The position numbers and the translations under genes were made by a program. This document shows, piece after piece, positions 10,027-58,476 of a DNA stretch of 64,000 nucleotides (its first letter is position 1; the number at the start of each line of letters is the position of its first letter). The DNA is taken from the NCBI RefSeq assembly GCF_002866025.1, contig NZ_LNDE01000002.1, positions 1-64,000 of the forward strand, written 5' to 3'. Source of the DNA: Thermotoga sp. KOL6 (GTDB taxonomy: Bacteria > Thermotogota > Thermotogae > Thermotogales > Thermotogaceae). The notes beneath the pieces are model-generated. The model saw nothing but the letters and a program-made list of their open reading frames with translations. It did no database searches and was not told where the DNA came from.

Positions 10027-11775
10027 TTGGCAGAAGTGAATATTTTCATAAATGGTAGAAATTTGACCGTGCCGGATAACCTCACAGTTCTAGAAGCTTG
10101 TGAAAGAGCTGGTGTTGAAGTACCTGCTTTGTGCCATCATCCAAGACTTGGAGAATCGATAGGTGCATGTAGAGTCTGTGTGGTGGAAATAGAAGGTGCA
10201 CGGAATCTACAACCGGCTTGTGTTACCAAAGTGAGAGATGGGATGGTTATAAAAACTTCTTCGGAAAGAGTCAAAACTGCTAGAAAATTCAATTTAGCTC
10301 TCCTTTTGTCCGAACATCCGAACGATTGTATGACCTGTGAGGCAAATGGAAGGTGTGAATTTCAAGATTTGATTTACAAATACGATGTTGAACCAATTTT
10401 CGGCTACGGTTCGAAAGAAGGATTGGTGGACAAAAGCAGTCCTGCCATCGTTAGGGAGATTGCCAAGTGTATAAAGTGTCAAAGATGTGTGAGAGCCTGT
10501 TCCGAGATTCAGGGTATGCATATCTATTCTATGGTGGAGAGAGGTTACAAAACGTATCCTGGAACCCCCTTCGACATGCCTGTTTATGAGACTGATTGTA
10601 TTGGATGTGGTCAGTGTGCAACGTTCTGTCCAACTGGAGCGATCGTGGAAAATTCCGCCGTCAAAGTCGTTCTTGAAGAGTTGGAGAAGAAAGAAAAAAT
10701 TCTCGTTGTTCAAACAGCTCCCTCGGTTAGAGTCGCGATTGGTGAAGAGTTTGGATATTCACCTGGTACGATTTCAACAGGACAATTGGTTGCTGCTCTC
10801 AGAAGACTCGGTTTTGATTACGTGTTCGATACGAACTTCGGAGCGGACCTTACTATCATGGAGGAAGGAAACGAGTTTCTCGAAAGACTCGAAAAAGGTG
10901 ATTTGGAAGACCTCCCAATGTTCACATCTTGTTGTCCTGGTTGGGTAAATCTAGTTGAAAAAGTCTATCCTGAGCTCAGGACAAGACTTTCCAGTGCCAA
11001 ATCTCCTCAAGGAATGCTTTCTGCTATGGTAAAGACTTACTTCGCTGAGAAGTTGGGAGTGAGGCCCGAAGATATTTTCCATGTTTCGATCATGCCTTGT
11101 ACTGCGAAAAAGGACGAAGCATTGAGAAAGCAGCTCATGGTGAACGGTGTACCGGCTGTAGATGTGGTTCTCACAACAAGAGAACTTGGAAAACTGATAA
11201 GGATAAAGGGTATTCCGTTTGCCAACCTTCCTGAAGAAGAATACGATGCACCGCTCGGTATATCCACAGGTGCAGCTGCACTTTTCGGTGTAACAGGTGG
11301 TGTGATGGAAGCCGCTTTGAGGACTGCATACGAACTGAAGACGGGTAGGGCCCTTCCTAAACTTGTATTTGAAGATGTGAGGGGATTGAAAGGAGTCAAA
11401 GAAGCAGAAGTAGATCTGGACGGCCAAAAGATCAAAATAGCAGTCGTTCACGGAACGGCGAACACACGGAGGTTAATAGAAAAAATTCTAAGGAGAGAAG
11501 TGAAGTATCACTTTGTCGAAGTCATGGCATGTCCCGGTGGTTGTATCGGTGGAGGAGGGCAACCCTACAGTAGAGATCCGGAAATTCTCAGAAAGAGAGC
11601 AGAAGCTATCTACACGATCGACGAGAGAATGACGCTCAGAAAATCTCATGAGAATCCTGCTATAAAGAAGCTTTATGAGGAGTATCTTGGACATCCACTC
11701 AGTCACAAAGCACATGAGCTCCTTCACACTTATTACGAAGACAGATCGAGAAAGAAGAAGCTTGCGGTAAAATGA
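10027..11775 (+). CDS. [FeFe]-hydrogenase, HydA-like catalytic subunit
   Basis: Hydrogen-evolving or hydrogen-oxidising enzyme with an H-cluster. Domains in order: plant-type [2Fe-2S] (Cys36, Cys48, Cys51, Cys65), His-Cys3 [4Fe-4S] (about His97, Cys101, Cys104, Cys110), two ferredoxin [4Fe-4S] sites (Cys148/151/154/158 and Cys191/194/197/201), then the H-cluster domain with TSCCPGW near 301, MPCTAKKDE near 357 and MACPGGCIGGGGQP near 500. All four H-cluster ligands are present, so it looks active. It is about 582 aa and lacks the extra C-terminal iron-sulfur domain of trimeric HydA. I start it at TTG 10027 behind GGGGAGGTG. A terminator closes the gene. Confidence 0.92.
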   Translation: MAEVNIFINGRNLTVPDNLTVLEACERAGVEVPALCHHPRLGESIGACRVCVVEIEGARNLQPACVTKVRDGMVIKTSSERVKTARKFNLALLLSEHPNDCMTCEANGRCEFQDLIYKYDVEPIFGYGSKEGLVDKSSPAIVREIAKCIKCQRCVRACSEIQGMHIYSMVERGYKTYPGTPFDMPVYETDCIGCGQCATFCPTGAIVENSAVKVVLEELEKKEKILVVQTAPSVRVAIGEEFGYSPGTISTGQLVAALRRLGFDYVFDTNFGADLTIMEEGNEFLERLEKGDLEDLPMFTSCCPGWVNLVEKVYPELRTRLSSAKSPQGMLSAMVKTYFAEKLGVRPEDIFHVSIMPCTAKKDEALRKQLMVNGVPAVDVVLTTRELGKLIRIKGIPFANLPEEEYDAPLGISTGAAALFGVTGGVMEAALRTAYELKTGRALPKLVFEDVRGLKGVKEAEVDLDGQKIKIAVVHGTANTRRLIEKILRREVKYHFVEVMACPGGCIGGGGQPYSRDPEILRKRAEAIYTIDERMTLRKSHENPAIKKLYEEYLGHPLSHKAHELLHTYYEDRSRKKKLAVK

Positions 11776-52235: not shown

Positions 52236-53059
52236 GAACGCTTCAGAAGATAGTGGGAAAACTTCCTTTCGAGATGGACACAGCATATCTCATGCTGGGG
52301 GAAAGATGTGTTTATAACTGTCTGTATTGTGCTCAGGCAAGATCTTCTAAAGCCCCTCCAGATCGTCTTTCTCGCGTTGTTTGGAAAGAGATTTCAGATC
52401 TTGAAGAGATTAACTATCATTTCAAACGTGTGTGTATTCAAGTTGTTTCTCAGCCGGGTTACAAAGAAGTCCTTCTCTCTCTCATACCGAAGTTCAGAAT
52501 CCCTGTTTCTGTAAGCGTGAGGCCAATCAGTGTGAAAGAAGTAATTGAATATTTTGAACTTGGAATAGATAGAATAGGAATAGCAATCGATGTTCCGAAC
52601 AGAGTTCTCTTTAGAAAGTTAAGAGGAGGAGACTATGATAGACTTCTTTCAATCCTCGAAAAGTCTTCAACGCTGTTTCCAAGAAGAGTAACAACTCATG
52701 TTATAGTTGGTCTTGGAGAGAGTGATAGAGATATAGTTGAATTTGCTCTTTGGACGAGGGAAAAAGAGATCACCCTTTCTCTTTTTGCCTTCACCCCTCT
52801 GAAAGGTACCGCCTTGGAGAGAAAAGAGAAGCCTTCTCTTGAGCGTTACAGAAAGATTCAGTTGGCGACTTTCCTTCTCGAGAAAAACGTGATATCTCTT
52901 GAGAACATTATTTTCGGACAAAATGATGAAATCGTTGACATCGAGTGGTCGGGAGTAGCTCCAGAAGAGGCCTTTAAAACGAGAGGTTGTCCCCATTGTA
53001 CGAGACCTTACTACAATGAAAGTCCAAAAGGCCCTATTTACAATCTACATTGGAGGTGA
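52214..53059 (+). CDS. radical SAM protein (biotin synthase-related, COG2516-like)
   Basis: A 281-aa radical SAM enzyme. The cluster motif is CVYNCLYC (CX3CX2C) near residue 33, preceded by AYLMLGER, and a C-terminal GCPHCTRPYYNESPKG could hold a second metal or cluster. The C-terminal motif fits a biotin-synthase-related group of unknown reaction. ATG 52214 follows GAGGTGGATCA and overlaps the previous gene by 22 nt. rnfC starts 4 bases after its stop, so it is co-transcribed with the Rnf operon. Confidence 0.85.
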   Translation: MVLRASVGTLQKIVGKLPFEMDTAYLMLGERCVYNCLYCAQARSSKAPPDRLSRVVWKEISDLEEINYHFKRVCIQVVSQPGYKEVLLSLIPKFRIPVSVSVRPISVKEVIEYFELGIDRIGIAIDVPNRVLFRKLRGGDYDRLLSILEKSSTLFPRRVTTHVIVGLGESDRDIVEFALWTREKEITLSLFAFTPLKGTALERKEKPSLERYRKIQLATFLLEKNVISLENIIFGQNDEIVDIEWSGVAPEEAFKTRGCPHCTRPYYNESPKGPIYNLHWR

Positions 53060-53063
53060 AAGC

Positions 53064-54371
53064 GTGCTCACTTTCAAAGGAGGGGTCCATCCCCCCCAAT
53101 TGAAGGAGTGGTCGAAGGAAAAATCGATAGAAAGAATGCCTTTGCCTGAAAGGGTTTATGTTTTCCTTCTGAACCATGCGGGCAATCCTGCCAAACCTGT
53201 TGTTTCGGTTGGTGACGAGGTAAAAACAGGACAGGTCATAGGAGAACCAGAGGGTTTCATATCTGCCTATTTACACTCACCTGTGACGGGAAAGGTGGTA
53301 GAGCTGAAAAAGATTCTTCACCCAATTGTTGGAAAACCCATTGAAGCGATCGTGATAGAAAGGACTTCTGAAGACGAATGGGTCAGATTGGGAACGGGGA
53401 ATTATGAGCAAATGTCGAAGGATGAGATCTTGGATGTTATCAAAAAAGCTGGAATAGTGGGACTTGGAGGTGCTATGTTTCCTACACACGTGAAACTTTC
53501 TCCTCCTCCAGAAAAAAGAGTGGATACTCTGATAATCAACGGTGCGGAGTGTGAACCTGTTCTCACCATTGATCACAGATTGATGTTGGAGAGAGCGGAA
53601 GATATCCTACAGGGGATACTCATCATGATGAAAGTTTTAGGGACGGAAAAGGCAATAGTTGGAGTTGAGAGCAACAAAATGGATGCTTACCAGAATTTGA
53701 AAAAGATTTTCAAAGGATACCCGGTTGATGTGGCTTTGTTGAAGACCAAATATCCTCAAGGTGCGGAGAAACAGCTCATCTATGCGATAACGAAAAGAAG
53801 AGTACCTCGTGGAGGCCTGCCCATGGACGTTGGAATTGTTGTACAGAACGTAGGAACCTGTGTAGCGGTGAAAGAAGCGGTTGTAGATGGGAAACCTCTT
53901 GTGGAAAGGGGCTTAACCGTGAGCGGAGATGCCGTCAAAAATCCTAAAAACTTGATTGTGAGAATAGGCACTCCTGTGAGAGACATACTTGAATACTGCG
54001 GAGGAATAGATGAAAACACGGAACGTGTAATCCTTGGAGGACCGATGATGGGAATAGCCATCACGAATTTGGATATTCCTATCATGAAAGGTACATCTGG
54101 GGTAACAGCGTTTCTTCCAAGAAAAGTCCAACCGCAAAAACCTTGTATCAGATGTAGCGAATGTGTACAAGTTTGTCCCATGAATCTTCAACCGTATCTT
54201 TTGTATCTTCTTTCTTCTAAGAGAAGATACGATGAGGCTGTGGAAAATGGTCTCATGGATTGTATTGAATGTGGTTCCTGTACATACACGTGTCCTTCGA
54301 AAATAGAACATGTAAGATACATAAAACTCGCAAAGACCGTATATCGGGCCACGAGGAGGGGTAGAAAATGA
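53064..54371 (+). CDS. rnfC: electron transport complex subunit RnfC
   Basis: NADH- and ferredoxin-linked subunit of the Rnf Na+/H+ pump. The 435-aa protein has the N-terminal biotinyl-like FKGGVHPP start, the Rossmann/FMN region GIVGLGGAMFPTHVK, and two [4Fe-4S] motifs, CIRCSECVQVCP and CIECGSCTYTCP. I start at GTG 53064 behind GGAGGTGAAAGC; the longer frame begins inside the radical SAM gene. It is coupled to rnfD by a 4-nt overlap. Confidence 0.95.
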   Translation: MLTFKGGVHPPQLKEWSKEKSIERMPLPERVYVFLLNHAGNPAKPVVSVGDEVKTGQVIGEPEGFISAYLHSPVTGKVVELKKILHPIVGKPIEAIVIERTSEDEWVRLGTGNYEQMSKDEILDVIKKAGIVGLGGAMFPTHVKLSPPPEKRVDTLIINGAECEPVLTIDHRLMLERAEDILQGILIMMKVLGTEKAIVGVESNKMDAYQNLKKIFKGYPVDVALLKTKYPQGAEKQLIYAITKRRVPRGGLPMDVGIVVQNVGTCVAVKEAVVDGKPLVERGLTVSGDAVKNPKNLIVRIGTPVRDILEYCGGIDENTERVILGGPMMGIAITNLDIPIMKGTSGVTAFLPRKVQPQKPCIRCSECVQVCPMNLQPYLLYLLSSKRRYDEAVENGLMDCIECGSCTYTCPSKIEHVRYIKLAKTVYRATRRGRK

Positions 54372-55324
54372 AGCTGTTGAGTGCTTACGCTCCTCATTTG
54401 CGTGAAGAGGATGACGTAAGAAAAATAATGTTAGACGTCCTCATAGCCCTTTCTCCTGCAGTGATAGGCGCTGCCTATTTTTTCGGATGGTACGCCCTCT
54501 TTCTTTGTGTCACAGGAGCAATAATCGGTGAACTTTTTGACGTGTTCGTTATGAAATATCTGAGGGGTGTGAAAGACTTCATACCCGATGGCAGTGGAGC
54601 TGTCACGGGCTTGCTTCTCGCAATGAACGTAAGCACAAGGCTTCCATTCTGGGCTTTTGTTTTAGGGCTCGTTTTTGCACTAGGTGTTGGAAAACATGCG
54701 TTTGGAGGTCTTGGACAAAACGTCTTCAACCCAGCTCTTGTCGGAAGAGCTTTCCTTCTCATTTCGTTTCCAACATACATGACCACTTGGGTTGTACCAG
54801 GAGCTGGTTTTTGGAAATCACCAGCAGATGTGATGACATCAGCCACGCCCCTCGCTCTGTTCAAGGAACAAGGACAGATCACTTCGTATTGGGACTTGTT
54901 TATTGGAAATGTAGGGGGTTCTCTCGGCGAGACAAGTGCCCTCCTCTTGCTCATTGGTTTCCTCTACTTGGTTCTAAGAAAGAGAATTAAAATTTTCATT
55001 CCACTTTCTTACATAGGCACGGTTTTCGTGTTTTCCACTGTAGCATACCTAGTGAGTTCAAAGTTTGGAGATCCTCTCTTTCACCTTCTCAGTGGGGGTC
55101 TTATGCTTGGAGCACTTTTCATGGCCACTGATATGGTCACGAGTCCGATCACACCAAAGGGTCAGGTGATCTTCGGAATTGGATGCGGCGTTCTCACTAT
55201 GGCGATCAGACTGTTTGGAGCTTATCCTGAAGGAGTATCCTTCTCTATTCTTTTCATGAACGCTTTGGTTCCTTTGATAGATAGATACACCAAACCACGA
55301 ATTTTCGGTGAGGTGAAAAAATGA
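54368..55324 (+). CDS. rnfD: electron transport complex subunit RnfD
   Basis: Membrane subunit with covalently bound FMN. The 318-aa protein has about nine hydrophobic segments. The flavinylation site is Thr160 in DVMTSATPLALF. PDGSGAVTGLLLAMNV and GQNVFNPALVGRAFL are family signatures. The FMN must be attached by ApbE, whose gene is not in this window. Confidence 0.95.
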   Translation: MKLLSAYAPHLREEDDVRKIMLDVLIALSPAVIGAAYFFGWYALFLCVTGAIIGELFDVFVMKYLRGVKDFIPDGSGAVTGLLLAMNVSTRLPFWAFVLGLVFALGVGKHAFGGLGQNVFNPALVGRAFLLISFPTYMTTWVVPGAGFWKSPADVMTSATPLALFKEQGQITSYWDLFIGNVGGSLGETSALLLLIGFLYLVLRKRIKIFIPLSYIGTVFVFSTVAYLVSSKFGDPLFHLLSGGLMLGALFMATDMVTSPITPKGQVIFGIGCGVLTMAIRLFGAYPEGVSFSILFMNALVPLIDRYTKPRIFGEVKK

Positions 55325-55998
55325 AAGACATATTGAAAACTGGTTTGATACTCATGGCTTTCACAGCAGTTGCCGGTCTTTTCTTGGGACTCGTTTATGT
55401 CGGTGTAAAAGATAAGATTCGTGAGGCAGACAACTCGGCAAAGTTGAAGGCCATAGAGTTCGTCCTTAAGGATCCTATGACCGGAGAGTATCTTGTGAGA
55501 AAGGAGAACATAGAAAACGAGGTAAAGAAGACGGGAATAGAAGCAGTTGTTTTGAAAGAATACAAAGAAGGAGTTGTGTTAGGGCCATTATATGTGTTCA
55601 GAACCGAAGATGGGAAGAAAGCGTACGTTCTTTCAGGGTATGCACCCGGATTTGGCGGGAATGTAACAGTTGTAGCGTGCTTTGTAGAGTCACAAAGAGG
55701 ACTTATTCTTAATTCCATCAGAGTCATAGACTATTCCCAAGAGACACCAGGGCTTGGAGCGAAGATTGGAGAAGAAGAGATTCAAAGAAGGTTTTTCCCA
55801 ATCCCGCCAGAAGGTTTGAAAGAGGGTCTGAAAGTGGATAAAGACGCTGGGCTCCCTAAAGGAACGCTCGATGAGTTGAAAAAGAAAGGAGTTGTGAAAG
55901 TAAGCGATGTTATGACCGGTGCTACCATAACTCCAAGAGCGGTTGTGACGGCTTTAAATCTCATGTACAGGTACCTGACCGAGGAGGTGCTGAAATGA
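55321..55998 (+). CDS. rnfG: electron transport complex subunit RnfG
   Basis: FMN-bearing subunit anchored by one N-terminal membrane helix (LILMAFTAVAGLFLGLVYVG). The 225-aa protein has YSGYAPGFGG-type loop (VLSGYAPGFGGNVTV), ETPGLGAKI and the flavinylation motif DVMTGATITP with Thr202. It overlaps rnfD and rnfE by 4 nt each. Confidence 0.94.
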   Translation: MKDILKTGLILMAFTAVAGLFLGLVYVGVKDKIREADNSAKLKAIEFVLKDPMTGEYLVRKENIENEVKKTGIEAVVLKEYKEGVVLGPLYVFRTEDGKKAYVLSGYAPGFGGNVTVVACFVESQRGLILNSIRVIDYSQETPGLGAKIGEEEIQRRFFPIPPEGLKEGLKVDKDAGLPKGTLDELKKKGVVKVSDVMTGATITPRAVVTALNLMYRYLTEEVLK

Positions 55999-56597
55999 GT
56001 CGTTTGCGGGAGTTAACGAAAGGTTTTATAAAAGAAAATCCTACTTATGTTCAGGTCCTCGGTATGTGTCCTACCCTTGCAGTAACGACAAGTGCTATCA
56101 ACGGCCTTGGAATGGGACTGGCTACGACGGCAGTTTTGACTATGTCGAACGTCGTTATTTCTATGATAAGAAAAGCTGTTCCAGAGAAAATACGAATTCC
56201 GATATTCATAGTCGTGATAGCCTCATTTGTTACACTGATTGATTTGCTCATGCATGGCTTTACCTATGAGCTCTGGAAAACTCTTGGTTTGTTTATTCCA
56301 TTGATTGTGGTGAATTGTATCATAATGGGAAGGGCTGAATCTTTCGCTTCAAAGCATGGAGTGTTCGATTCACTACTAGATGGTCTGGGAATGGGGCTTG
56401 GTTTCACAGGATCTTTGGTGCTTCTTGGAAGTGTGAGGGAGATCTTTGGAAGCGGTACGATCTTTGGCTACGAAGTATGGAAAGTCAAGATCTTTCTTGA
56501 GATACTCCCTCCCGGCGCTTACATAACTCTTGGTCTCCTTCTTGCATTCTTCACCTTCATTGGAACGAAACGAAAGAAGCGAGGTGAAGCTAAATGA
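55995..56597 (+). CDS. rnfE: electron transport complex subunit RnfE
   Basis: A 200-aa integral membrane subunit with about six hydrophobic segments. The signatures are NPTYVQVLGMCPTLAVT and VNCIIMGRAESFA, each with the conserved Cys that flanks the membrane [2Fe-2S] site shared with RnfA. It overlaps rnfG and rnfA by 4 nt. Confidence 0.95.
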   Translation: MSRLRELTKGFIKENPTYVQVLGMCPTLAVTTSAINGLGMGLATTAVLTMSNVVISMIRKAVPEKIRIPIFIVVIASFVTLIDLLMHGFTYELWKTLGLFIPLIVVNCIIMGRAESFASKHGVFDSLLDGLGMGLGFTGSLVLLGSVREIFGSGTIFGYEVWKVKIFLEILPPGAYITLGLLLAFFTFIGTKRKKRGEAK

Positions 56598-57169
56598 AGA
56601 TCTTTTTGCTTTTCTTTTCAGCTATATTTGTGAACAACTTCGTTCTTGCAAGATTTCTTGGAATATGTCCTTTTTTGGGAGTTTCCAAGAGACTTGAAAC
56701 GGCAACCGGTATGGGTATTGCTGTTACTTTCGTTATGACAGTGTCCGCGGCGATCAGCTGGTTTTTGGATAAACTTCTTATTTCCACCGGTCTTGAATTC
56801 TTGAGAACGATCGTTTTTATCCTTGTTATTGCTTCCTTTGTTCAGTTTGTGGAACTCTTTCTGAAAAAAACAAGTCCGGATCTTTACGAAGCGCTGGGAA
56901 TATTCCTTCCTCTTATAACTACGAACTGCGCTATTTTAGGAATGGTGCTTTTGAACAGTTTGATGAAACTCAGTTTCGTCGAGGCAATTTTTCATGCTTT
57001 GGGTTCTGGATTAGGCTTTGCCCTCGCGTTAGTGATATTTGCTGGGATTAGAGAAAAACTAGATCTTTATGATCTTCCGGAATCTTTCAAAGGAACTGCC
57101 ATAGCTTTGATTACAGCAGGTTTACTCTCCTTAGCGTTCATGGGATTCCAAGGCATGGTGAAATTATAA
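56594..57169 (+). CDS. rnfA: electron transport complex subunit RnfA
   Basis: A 191-aa integral membrane subunit, paralogous to RnfE in inverted topology. It has NNFVLARFLGICPFLGVSK and TTNCAILGMVLLN, with the cysteines of the membrane iron-sulfur site. It overlaps rnfE by 4 nt and is followed by the short rnfB. Confidence 0.95.
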   Translation: MKIFLLFFSAIFVNNFVLARFLGICPFLGVSKRLETATGMGIAVTFVMTVSAAISWFLDKLLISTGLEFLRTIVFILVIASFVQFVELFLKKTSPDLYEALGIFLPLITTNCAILGMVLLNSLMKLSFVEAIFHALGSGLGFALALVIFAGIREKLDLYDLPESFKGTAIALITAGLLSLAFMGFQGMVKL

Positions 57170-57182
57170 GGAGGTGAATGAG

Positions 57183-57476
57183 TTGGAAGTTTTGTACTCG
57201 ACTCTACTCCTTGCAATTCTGGGGTTTGGTTTTGGAACTTTCCTCGCATATTCTGCTCAGAAATTTAAGGTTGAAGAAGATCCTCGTGTGAAGATGATAG
57301 TCAACGTTCTTCCGGGAATAAACTGTGGTGCCTGTGGCTTTGCCGGTTGTGAAGCTTATGCAAAGGCAATAGTGAAAGGCCAGGCGGAGATAAACAGATG
57401 TTTGCCAGGAAGACCCCAAGGAGTTGAAGAGAAAATAAAGAAAATTCTCGAGGAGTACAAAAATGACGCCTCTTGA
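57183..57476 (+). CDS. rnfB: short RnfB without the C-terminal ferredoxin domains
   Basis: About 97 aa: one N-terminal membrane helix and the [4Fe-4S] domain with Cys48, Cys51, Cys56 and Cys73 (NCGACGFAGCEAYA). The usual RnfB (roughly 190 aa or more) continues into one or more ferredoxin domains that receive electrons from soluble ferredoxin. Here the frame stops after EEKIKKILEEYKNDAS and dprA begins within its last 14 bases, with no ferredoxin remnant in any frame. I start at TTG 57183 after AAGGAGGTGA; GTG 57174 lies inside that site. Confidence 0.85.
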   Translation: MEVLYSTLLLAILGFGFGTFLAYSAQKFKVEEDPRVKMIVNVLPGINCGACGFAGCEAYAKAIVKGQAEINRCLPGRPQGVEEKIKKILEEYKNDAS

Positions 57477-58476
57477 GATAGCACTCCTGATTCAGTATGG
57501 TGGTTTCAAGATTTCCGAGCTGGAGCCAGAGACCGATTTGAGGCGATTTCTTAGAAATGCCGATCCCAACAAAGTGAAAAGATTCTATCAAAGATGTGGC
57601 GAGGAAGAAATTATCAAACAAAAGGATCTTGTGAGAAAATACAACGTGAAGTTAGTATCTTTCTGGGACGAAGCTTATCCTGATCCCTTAAAAAACATGA
57701 AGTCACCTCCTGTCGTTCTTTTTGTTAGAGGAAATGAAAAGCTTCTTAGAGAGAGATGTGTATCGGTTGTTGGCACTAGAAGGCCAACGGCATATGGAGT
57801 AAGTGTAACCAAACGATTTGTCAAGATGCTTTCTGAGCATTTTGTGGTTGTTTCTGGAATGGCTTTAGGAATAGATTCAGTTGCTCACAGGACGGCGTTG
57901 GAGAACGGTGGTAGAACCTTGGCAGTACTCGGAACGGGAGTAGATAAGATTTATCCTAAAACAAATGAACAACTGCTAGCTCGAATTCTGAAAAACGGAT
58001 GTGTTGTAAGTGAATATGTGATGGGAACGAATCCAAAAAAACATCATTTTCCTGCGAGAAATCGTATCATAGCTGGTCTTTCTGAAGTTGTTATTGTTAC
58101 TGAAGCCCCTGCAAAGAGCGGTGCCATTTTGACCGCGAAGTTTGCTATCGATAATGGTAGAGACGTGTTTGCAATACCTGGAGACATAGATAGAAAGACG
58201 AGCGAGGGAACGAATTATCTGATAAAATCGGGAGCGTATCCTCTCACATGTGAAGAGGATCTCATTTTTTACTTCGGAATTACCAGGAAAAGTTCGTTCT
58301 CTGTTAATCAACATCAGAGAGAGATTTATGAACTGTTGAAAGTTTCTCCGAAATCTGTCGATGATTTGGCCGAGGAGTTGGGTTGGGAGATATCGGAGGT
58401 TCTCAAAACGATATCGGAAATGGAAATAATGGGATTGATAGAATCTACAGGGGGAATATACAGGGCATTGGGGTGA
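57463..58476 (+). CDS. dprA: DNA processing protein DprA
   Basis: Protects incoming single-stranded DNA in natural transformation and loads RecA. The 337-aa protein has the Rossmann-like core with VVGTRRPTAYG, VVSGMALGIDSVAHRTAL, AVLGTGVDKIYP, FPARNRIIAGLS and TEAPAKSGAILTAKFA. A C-terminal winged-helix domain (about 285-337) follows. ATG 57463 follows GAGGAGTAC and overlaps the rnfB end. Confidence 0.95.
   Translation: MTPLEIALLIQYGGFKISELEPETDLRRFLRNADPNKVKRFYQRCGEEEIIKQKDLVRKYNVKLVSFWDEAYPDPLKNMKSPPVVLFVRGNEKLLRERCVSVVGTRRPTAYGVSVTKRFVKMLSEHFVVVSGMALGIDSVAHRTALENGGRTLAVLGTGVDKIYPKTNEQLLARILKNGCVVSEYVMGTNPKKHHFPARNRIIAGLSEVVIVTEAPAKSGAILTAKFAIDNGRDVFAIPGDIDRKTSEGTNYLIKSGAYPLTCEEDLIFYFGITRKSSFSVNQHQREIYELLKVSPKSVDDLAEELGWEISEVLKTISEMEIMGLIESTGGIYRALG

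Follow-up and report, generated by a model that had tools for sequence, protein, structure and literature searches.

A short RnfB with one predicted [4Fe-4S] domain in Thermotoga sp. KOL6 and the comparative pattern of short and doubled RnfB proteins

The window analysed here, the whole stretch of 64,000 nt from Thermotoga sp. KOL6, contains an rnf operon in the order rnfCDGEAB, with RnfB co-encoded with the other five rnf genes. The features are as follows.

53016..54371, + strand: rnfC, 451 aa, intact, with two [4Fe-4S] motifs; TIGR01945 635 bits against a cut-off of 246; Pfam RnfC_N, Complex1_51K and Fer4_10
54368..55324, + strand: rnfD, 318 aa; TIGR01946 408 bits
55321..55998, + strand: rnfG, 225 aa; TIGR01947 179 bits
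55995..56597, + strand: rnfE, 200 aa; TIGR01948 288 bits
56594..57169, + strand: rnfA, 191 aa; TIGR01943 288 bits
57170..57174, + strand: GGAGG, probable ribosome-binding site of rnfB, 8 nt before the TTG at 57183, read from the sequence
57183..57476, + strand: rnfB, short form, 97 aa (100 aa with the GTG at 57174 as start)
57180..57263, + strand: membrane helix of RnfB, residues 3-30 of the 100-aa frame, from the AlphaFold model; codons before 57183 are coding only with the GTG start
57309..57407, + strand: FdI domain (PF04060) of RnfB, cysteine codons at 57324, 57333, 57348 and 57399
57411-57413, + strand: Arg codon after the fourth Cys of RnfB, in the context C-L-P-G-R
57463..58476, + strand: dprA, a neighbour and not part of Rnf; TIGR00732 253 bits; 14-nt overlap with the end of rnfB

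RnfC, D, G, E and A are all full length and above the NCBIfam rnf cut-offs (53016-57169), in line with an earlier note on this DNA that had called the other subunits intact. The rnfB frame runs over 57174-57476 from GTG or 57183-57476 from TTG; TTG is the better start because GGAGG sits 8 nt upstream of it. Since the frame ends 14 nt inside dprA, there is no space for a remnant of a C-terminal ferredoxin domain, and the earlier claim that none follows rnfB holds. The resulting 97-aa protein has a mass of 10,574 Da (10.57 kDa).

So short a gene might be a truncated pseudogene or an assembly error, with the complex dead or miscalled, and the shortness of rnfB relative to Acetobacterium woodii and most other phyla is the one point in favour of this. 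However, the same 100-aa frame is present in 6 of 6 congeneric genomes searched (L009, L021-L025), with the cysteines conserved, and the rnfB/dprA overlap is also present in L148. Short or doubled RnfB occurs in 99 of 103 Thermotogota genomes, and the complex of T. maritima is active according to the available part of its description (PMC7414866). Frame conservation and this activity refute the pseudogene or error explanation, to which we give practically no chance. The earlier note had itself raised an assembly error at the end of rnfB and a full-length RnfB elsewhere in the genome: the frame shared by six genomes of the genus rejects the former, and a PF04060 search of the KOL6 genome (99.93% complete) found no second or longer RnfB. 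The only other PF04060 match there, a 475-aa protein at C1:367897 that has an FeS domain at its C-terminus as well as Fer4 motifs, was rejected as an RnfB and is an unrelated protein.

The protein consists of one transmembrane helix followed by one CxxCxxxxCx16C domain, which is FdI (called B8 in A. woodii). PF04060 FeS is its sole Pfam domain (59.6 bits, residues 46-78 of the 100-aa frame), and the match to TIGR01944 (rnfB) reaches 81.1 bits against a cut-off of 68.7 while covering model positions 7-91 of 190. No Fer4 match was obtained in the Pfam search, and the C-terminal 2[4Fe-4S] ferredoxin module is absent. An AlphaFold model built on a 41-sequence alignment (mean pLDDT 90.1) has a long helix at 3-30 and a small helical domain. 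Thus, Pfam, TIGR01944 and the model agree with the earlier description of a membrane anchor plus one [4Fe-4S] domain in about 97 residues. The 2[4Fe-4S] module is usual among characterised RnfBs and is not universal; because T. maritima RnfB works without one, it does not define RnfB.

In comparison with solved structures, the protein corresponds to the helix and FdI of three RnfBs. The top matches in a profile search of solved-structure sequences were three known RnfBs, and the model superposes on residues 1-92 of A. woodii RnfB (Z 6.9, rmsd 5.7, 92 aligned). The helix and FdI/B8 are common to KOL6 RnfB and the RnfBs of A. woodii (PDB 9eri) and Clostridium tetanomorphum (7zc6), but those proteins continue into FdII/FdIII polyferredoxin tails (333 and 274 aa), whereas KOL6 RnfB stops after FdI. 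Azotobacter vinelandii RnfB (8ahx) is alike in helix and FdI, matching over residues 2-87, and differs in having one more ferredoxin domain in its 174-aa chain. The same small [4Fe-4S] fold recurs in the N-terminal domain of the corrinoid iron-sulphur protein (4c1n, 2ycl, 4djd; Z 7.3-9.0 over 54-57 residues), the best superposition of the soluble part giving Z 9.0 and rmsd 1.8 over 57 aligned residues; unlike RnfB, that domain is a soluble part of a methyl-transfer protein without a membrane anchor. Fold-search matches ranked below these look like chance and were set aside. NqrF of Na+-NQR, in the available descriptions, works alike in that one helix tethers a mobile Fe-S domain feeding a two-subunit membrane cluster, but its domain is an unrelated [2Fe-2S] one joined to a FAD/NADH module. 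With no NqrF model among its NCBIfam matches and only PF04060 in Pfam, KOL6 RnfB is not an NqrF.

A short RnfB of this kind was already in print. In the available parts of Kuhns et al. 2020 (PMC7414866), T. maritima RnfB is given as 10.56 kDa with one predicted 4Fe-4S centre, and RnfB lengths of several organisms are compared (Fig. 9). In a first, less pure preparation of T. maritima Rnf, mass spectrometry showed no subunits but RnfC, D and G; in the purified complex all six subunits were confirmed by MALDI-TOF, and this complex pumped Na+ and used C. pasteurianum ferredoxin to reduce NAD+ (PMC7414866, same parts). The cluster content of the short RnfB is a prediction that, in the words available from that study, remains to be established. 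Likewise, the available part of Vitt et al. 2022 (PMC9588780) describes the shortened T. maritima RnfB as FdI only. The T. maritima and KOL6 proteins, from the same genus, show no substantial difference: 10.56 versus 10.57 kDa, one predicted [4Fe-4S] centre, and the last gene of rnfCDGEAB. The short RnfB with one predicted cluster has therefore been known, from T. maritima, since 2020. The earlier note was right that the short form is real, but it is not a surprise, having been published for T. maritima and appearing phylum-wide. The short RnfB of KOL6 itself adds little to this; the comparative pattern, not found in print, deserves a note. A literature search, with most subscription journals beyond its reach, recognised no paper on double-FdI RnfB, on rnfB unlinked from the operon in Thermotogota, or on a short RnfB among Acholeplasmatales relatives. 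Rnf is mentioned in two studies of wall-less bacteria, whose available parts do not give the size of RnfB (PMC11122141, PMC8397711).

The comparison of RnfB lengths across Thermotogota that the earlier note had proposed was carried out on 103 genomes. An N-terminal RnfB match was present in 99, with 83 short (91-136 aa frames) and 16 longer (231-240 aa frames) and doubled; four genomes (G003, G011, G031, G054) gave no match. The short form is the only RnfB in the 83 genomes, save for an extra copy in G102, which was counted as short by its other copy. That extra copy, a 268-aa RnfB, belongs to a second rnf operon on a 5.5-kb contig (L132, G102:C122) that the tree described below puts outside Thermotogota, and we treat it as contamination or transfer. 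One gene cut by a contig end (L109) was excluded from the counts of forms. Separately, some Thermotogota encode a predicted permease (PF03773 ArsP_1) that carries a PF04060 FeS domain fused to its C-terminus (L006:892-1626, L008, L020).

All 16 longer RnfBs lie in Kosmotogaceae (family f9, 17 genomes, the remaining one being G031), and a Kosmotogaceae MAG (L039) groups within the f9 clade in the tree. Read from sequence and model, these proteins have two FdI domains and no second membrane helix; individual examples of 230-236 aa with two FdI and one helix are L125:5075-5767, L124, L126-L128 and L039. The best match of the second FdI was a short Thermotogota RnfB in 6 of 6 proteins tested, and in 5 of 6 that RnfB belonged to sister family f10, where the short protein carries a comparable helical tail. 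This closeness to short Thermotogota RnfBs is what tandem duplication predicts, and the Kosmotogaceae form apparently arose by tandem duplication of a short RnfB.

The rnfB and rnfA genes are separated in 32 of the 99 Thermotogota genomes that have an RnfB match (20 in f3, 9 in f10 and 3 in f11), as judged by position, which in draft genomes partly means different contigs. The rnfA regions of 15 of the 32 (L184-L198) each contain rnfCDGEA but lack any frame resembling RnfB; loci with the separate rnfB are L173-L183. Where f3 has a lone rnfB, the gene still adjoins dprA in 5 of 5 regions fetched; therefore it was probably the core operon, not rnfB, that moved. About 3.4 kb upstream of one lone rnfB (L177:9190-13113, G077) there are nqrB, C, D, E and F-like genes with no nqrA in front; a 2014 survey, in its available part, found no nqr operon in Thermotogae (PMC4014512). 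Second, NqrE-like matches appeared in many Thermotogota genomes during the rnfA search.

Outside Thermotogota, a pattern scan of genome contigs gave 4 short RnfBs among its best 80 loci, which are no census: two from Acholeplasmatales MAGs, one from a Bacillales MAG and one from a Clostridiales MAG (L045, L060, L096, L102). In the class of L045, which holds Acholeplasmatales and is here called Bacilli-class, PF04060 matches were present in 212 of 395 genomes; 150 rows tallied comprised 126 frames of at most 160 aa, 8 of 161-245 aa and 16 longer, not all of the longer ones being RnfB. Among 24 loci examined (23 distinct genes, L200 and L222 being one), 17 were short, 4 double and 3 long, with rnfA and rnfE beside rnfB in all. 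The doubles (L203-L206) are 183-192-aa RnfBs with two FdI in four genomes, in or next to rnf operons, and constitute a second, separate doubling. At a further locus (L207, G182:C1:605000-623500), about 9 kb separates two rnf clusters that encode short RnfBs of different sequence, one in each cluster. The class of L102 served as a control, with rnfB matches in 273 of 391 genomes and frames of 172-363 aa among about 150 N-terminal matches listed. The rnfB of L102 itself is 92 aa (117 aa as the frame in its own genome), and its locus (L102:2512-6270) contains rnfD, a large rnfG-like gene, rnfE, rnfA and rnfB, with no rnfC.

To place these forms we used an unrooted tree of RnfC+D+E+A (LG+G4, quick method), for which 18 of 122 full sets were dropped as truncated genes or near duplicates and KOL6 was added, giving 105 rows; L102 is absent from it because its locus lacks rnfC. 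Thermotogota come out as a single group, as do the 18 Bacilli-class rows with a short or double RnfB, each with support 100, and the two long Bacilli-class rows nest with Clostridia. Long and short states require two changes on this tree. Forcing the short and double rows into one clade was worse by 66 log-likelihood units (p-AU 0.009), a test run on 64 of the 105 rows for a group named after the tree was seen. Double versus short likewise takes two changes on the 64-row tree. Loss of the FdII/FdIII tail is likely on this unrooted tree, though short of proof. Alternatively, the short RnfB may be ancestral and the long forms later fusions of ferredoxin modules: on an unrooted tree change counts cannot separate loss from gain, and long-form tails vary widely, with 1 to 5 Fer4-type motifs. 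Yet the nearest neighbours of Thermotogota are long-form rows and the two short groups do not join, and we consider an ancestral short form unlikely.

One feature of the sequence sets the short forms apart. A Lys or Arg within 6 residues after the fourth cluster Cys is present in 60 of 60 distinct short RnfBs (40/40 Thermotogota, 19/19 Bacilli-class, 1/1 other) versus 20 of 69 long ones (20/66 other, 0/3 Bacilli-class), although relatedness makes these counts few events, not many. Gly-Gly occurs within this stretch in 53 of 69 long RnfBs and in none of the others. Among doubles, the basic residue occurs in 6 of 6 from Thermotogota and in the first domain of 0 of 4 from the Bacilli-class. The six Kosmotogaceae doubles have it in both FdI domains, and the mark is non-discriminating there; the four Bacilli-class doubles have basic residues (for example RPLNKK) on the second FdI and not on the first, which fits the outer domain as a ferredoxin port. 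From these sequence patterns, the basic residue may possibly be a ferredoxin-docking feature. Overall positive charge of FdI was rejected as a docking signal: the charges are inconsistent among groups (Thermotogota short +1.8, Bacilli-class short -1.55, other long -1.63), and the sole distinctive residues are those following the fourth Cys.

We favour, with a probability of about 0.78, a functional minimal RnfB in which soluble ferredoxin donates straight to FdI and FdI carries the electron to RnfA/E. The single helix of RnfB would dock in the Rnf membrane core and tether the mobile [4Fe-4S] FdI domain. A soluble reduced ferredoxin, probably the acidic single-cluster one of the cell, would pass its electron directly to the FdI cluster, and FdI would then swing into RnfA/RnfE to deliver it to the membrane [2Fe-2S] cluster. 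From there the electron would travel through RnfG, RnfD and RnfC to NAD+, driving Na+ export. FdII/FdIII, the wire present in other RnfBs, would be an optional input extension, probably lost in a Thermotogota ancestor; such a loss is likely, rather than ancestral shortness, while docking of ferredoxin on FdI and the identity of the donor are what we infer. A plausible donor to FdI is the 60-aa ferredoxin encoded by KOL6, which is acidic (net -7) and of the single-cluster type. In solved Rnf complexes, as far as the available parts of the two reports go, FdI/B8 is the domain that reaches RnfA/E (PMC11889175, PMC9588780): Vitt et al. 2022 propose that FdI shuttles between FdII+III and RnfA/E (PMC9588780), and in Kumar et al. 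2025 the B8 domain, the FdI equivalent, moves towards the membrane cluster (PMC11889175).

The earlier note had left two routes open, direct donation to the Cys4 domain or a replacement of the missing part by another protein. Of these, direct donation is the better alternative, and we found no support for a replacement. Such a companion, a ferredoxin or small Fe-S protein whose gene lies elsewhere and which binds stably in place of FdII/FdIII, could be drawn from the further small Fe-S proteins in the genome (74- to 152-aa frames); it would cover the RnfC surface on which FdII/III normally sits in the available structural descriptions and which would otherwise be bare, and the 32 genomes with unlinked rnfB indicate that subunit genes can lie far away. 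However, the T. maritima complex worked with C. pasteurianum ferredoxin (PMC7414866, available part), and therefore no Thermotoga-specific companion ferredoxin needed adding in vitro. Nor does a ferredoxin gene adjoin rnf in a PF12838 and PF13370 search of the window, where PF12838 had no match beyond RnfC and the 607-aa frame at 10465; every PF13370 match lay on another contig. Kosmotogaceae and some Bacilli-class members, moreover, added a second FdI instead. On this evidence a stable companion is improbable. The partner subunits were also compared for compensating positions, taken as those that at least 85% of complexes with a long RnfB share and that both short clades have lost; this crude comparison, made without structure, gave 0/92 in RnfC, 0/64 in RnfD, 0/44 in RnfE and 0/51 in RnfA. 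The tail of RnfC shows no systematic shortening (medians 25 in Thermotogota, 19 in Bacilli-class short and 24 in long).

More tentatively, and at somewhat worse than even odds in our judgement, FdI-only RnfB may be a recurrent second design of Rnf, in which at least two losses removed the wire (one in Thermotogota and one in the class holding Acholeplasmatales, with a third case in the Clostridiales MAG), docking moved to an FdI marked by a basic residue, and input was extended by duplicating FdI. If so, both large groups rebuilt their input by FdI duplication and did not regain a bacterial ferredoxin module, and FdI can act both as entry port and as shuttle.

We return to the minimal RnfB fed directly by ferredoxin. 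Because a short RnfB is active, Rnf can oxidise ferredoxin and pump Na+ without the long Fe-S wire, and the minimal electron input of Rnf would be one mobile [4Fe-4S] domain. The comparative pattern indicates that the short RnfB is no oddity of T. maritima. The separate short clades, the rebuilding by FdI duplication and the unlinked rnfB genes provide natural variants for tests, and the Rnf of Thermotoga would offer a simple system for how FdI reduction gates the RnfA/E switch.
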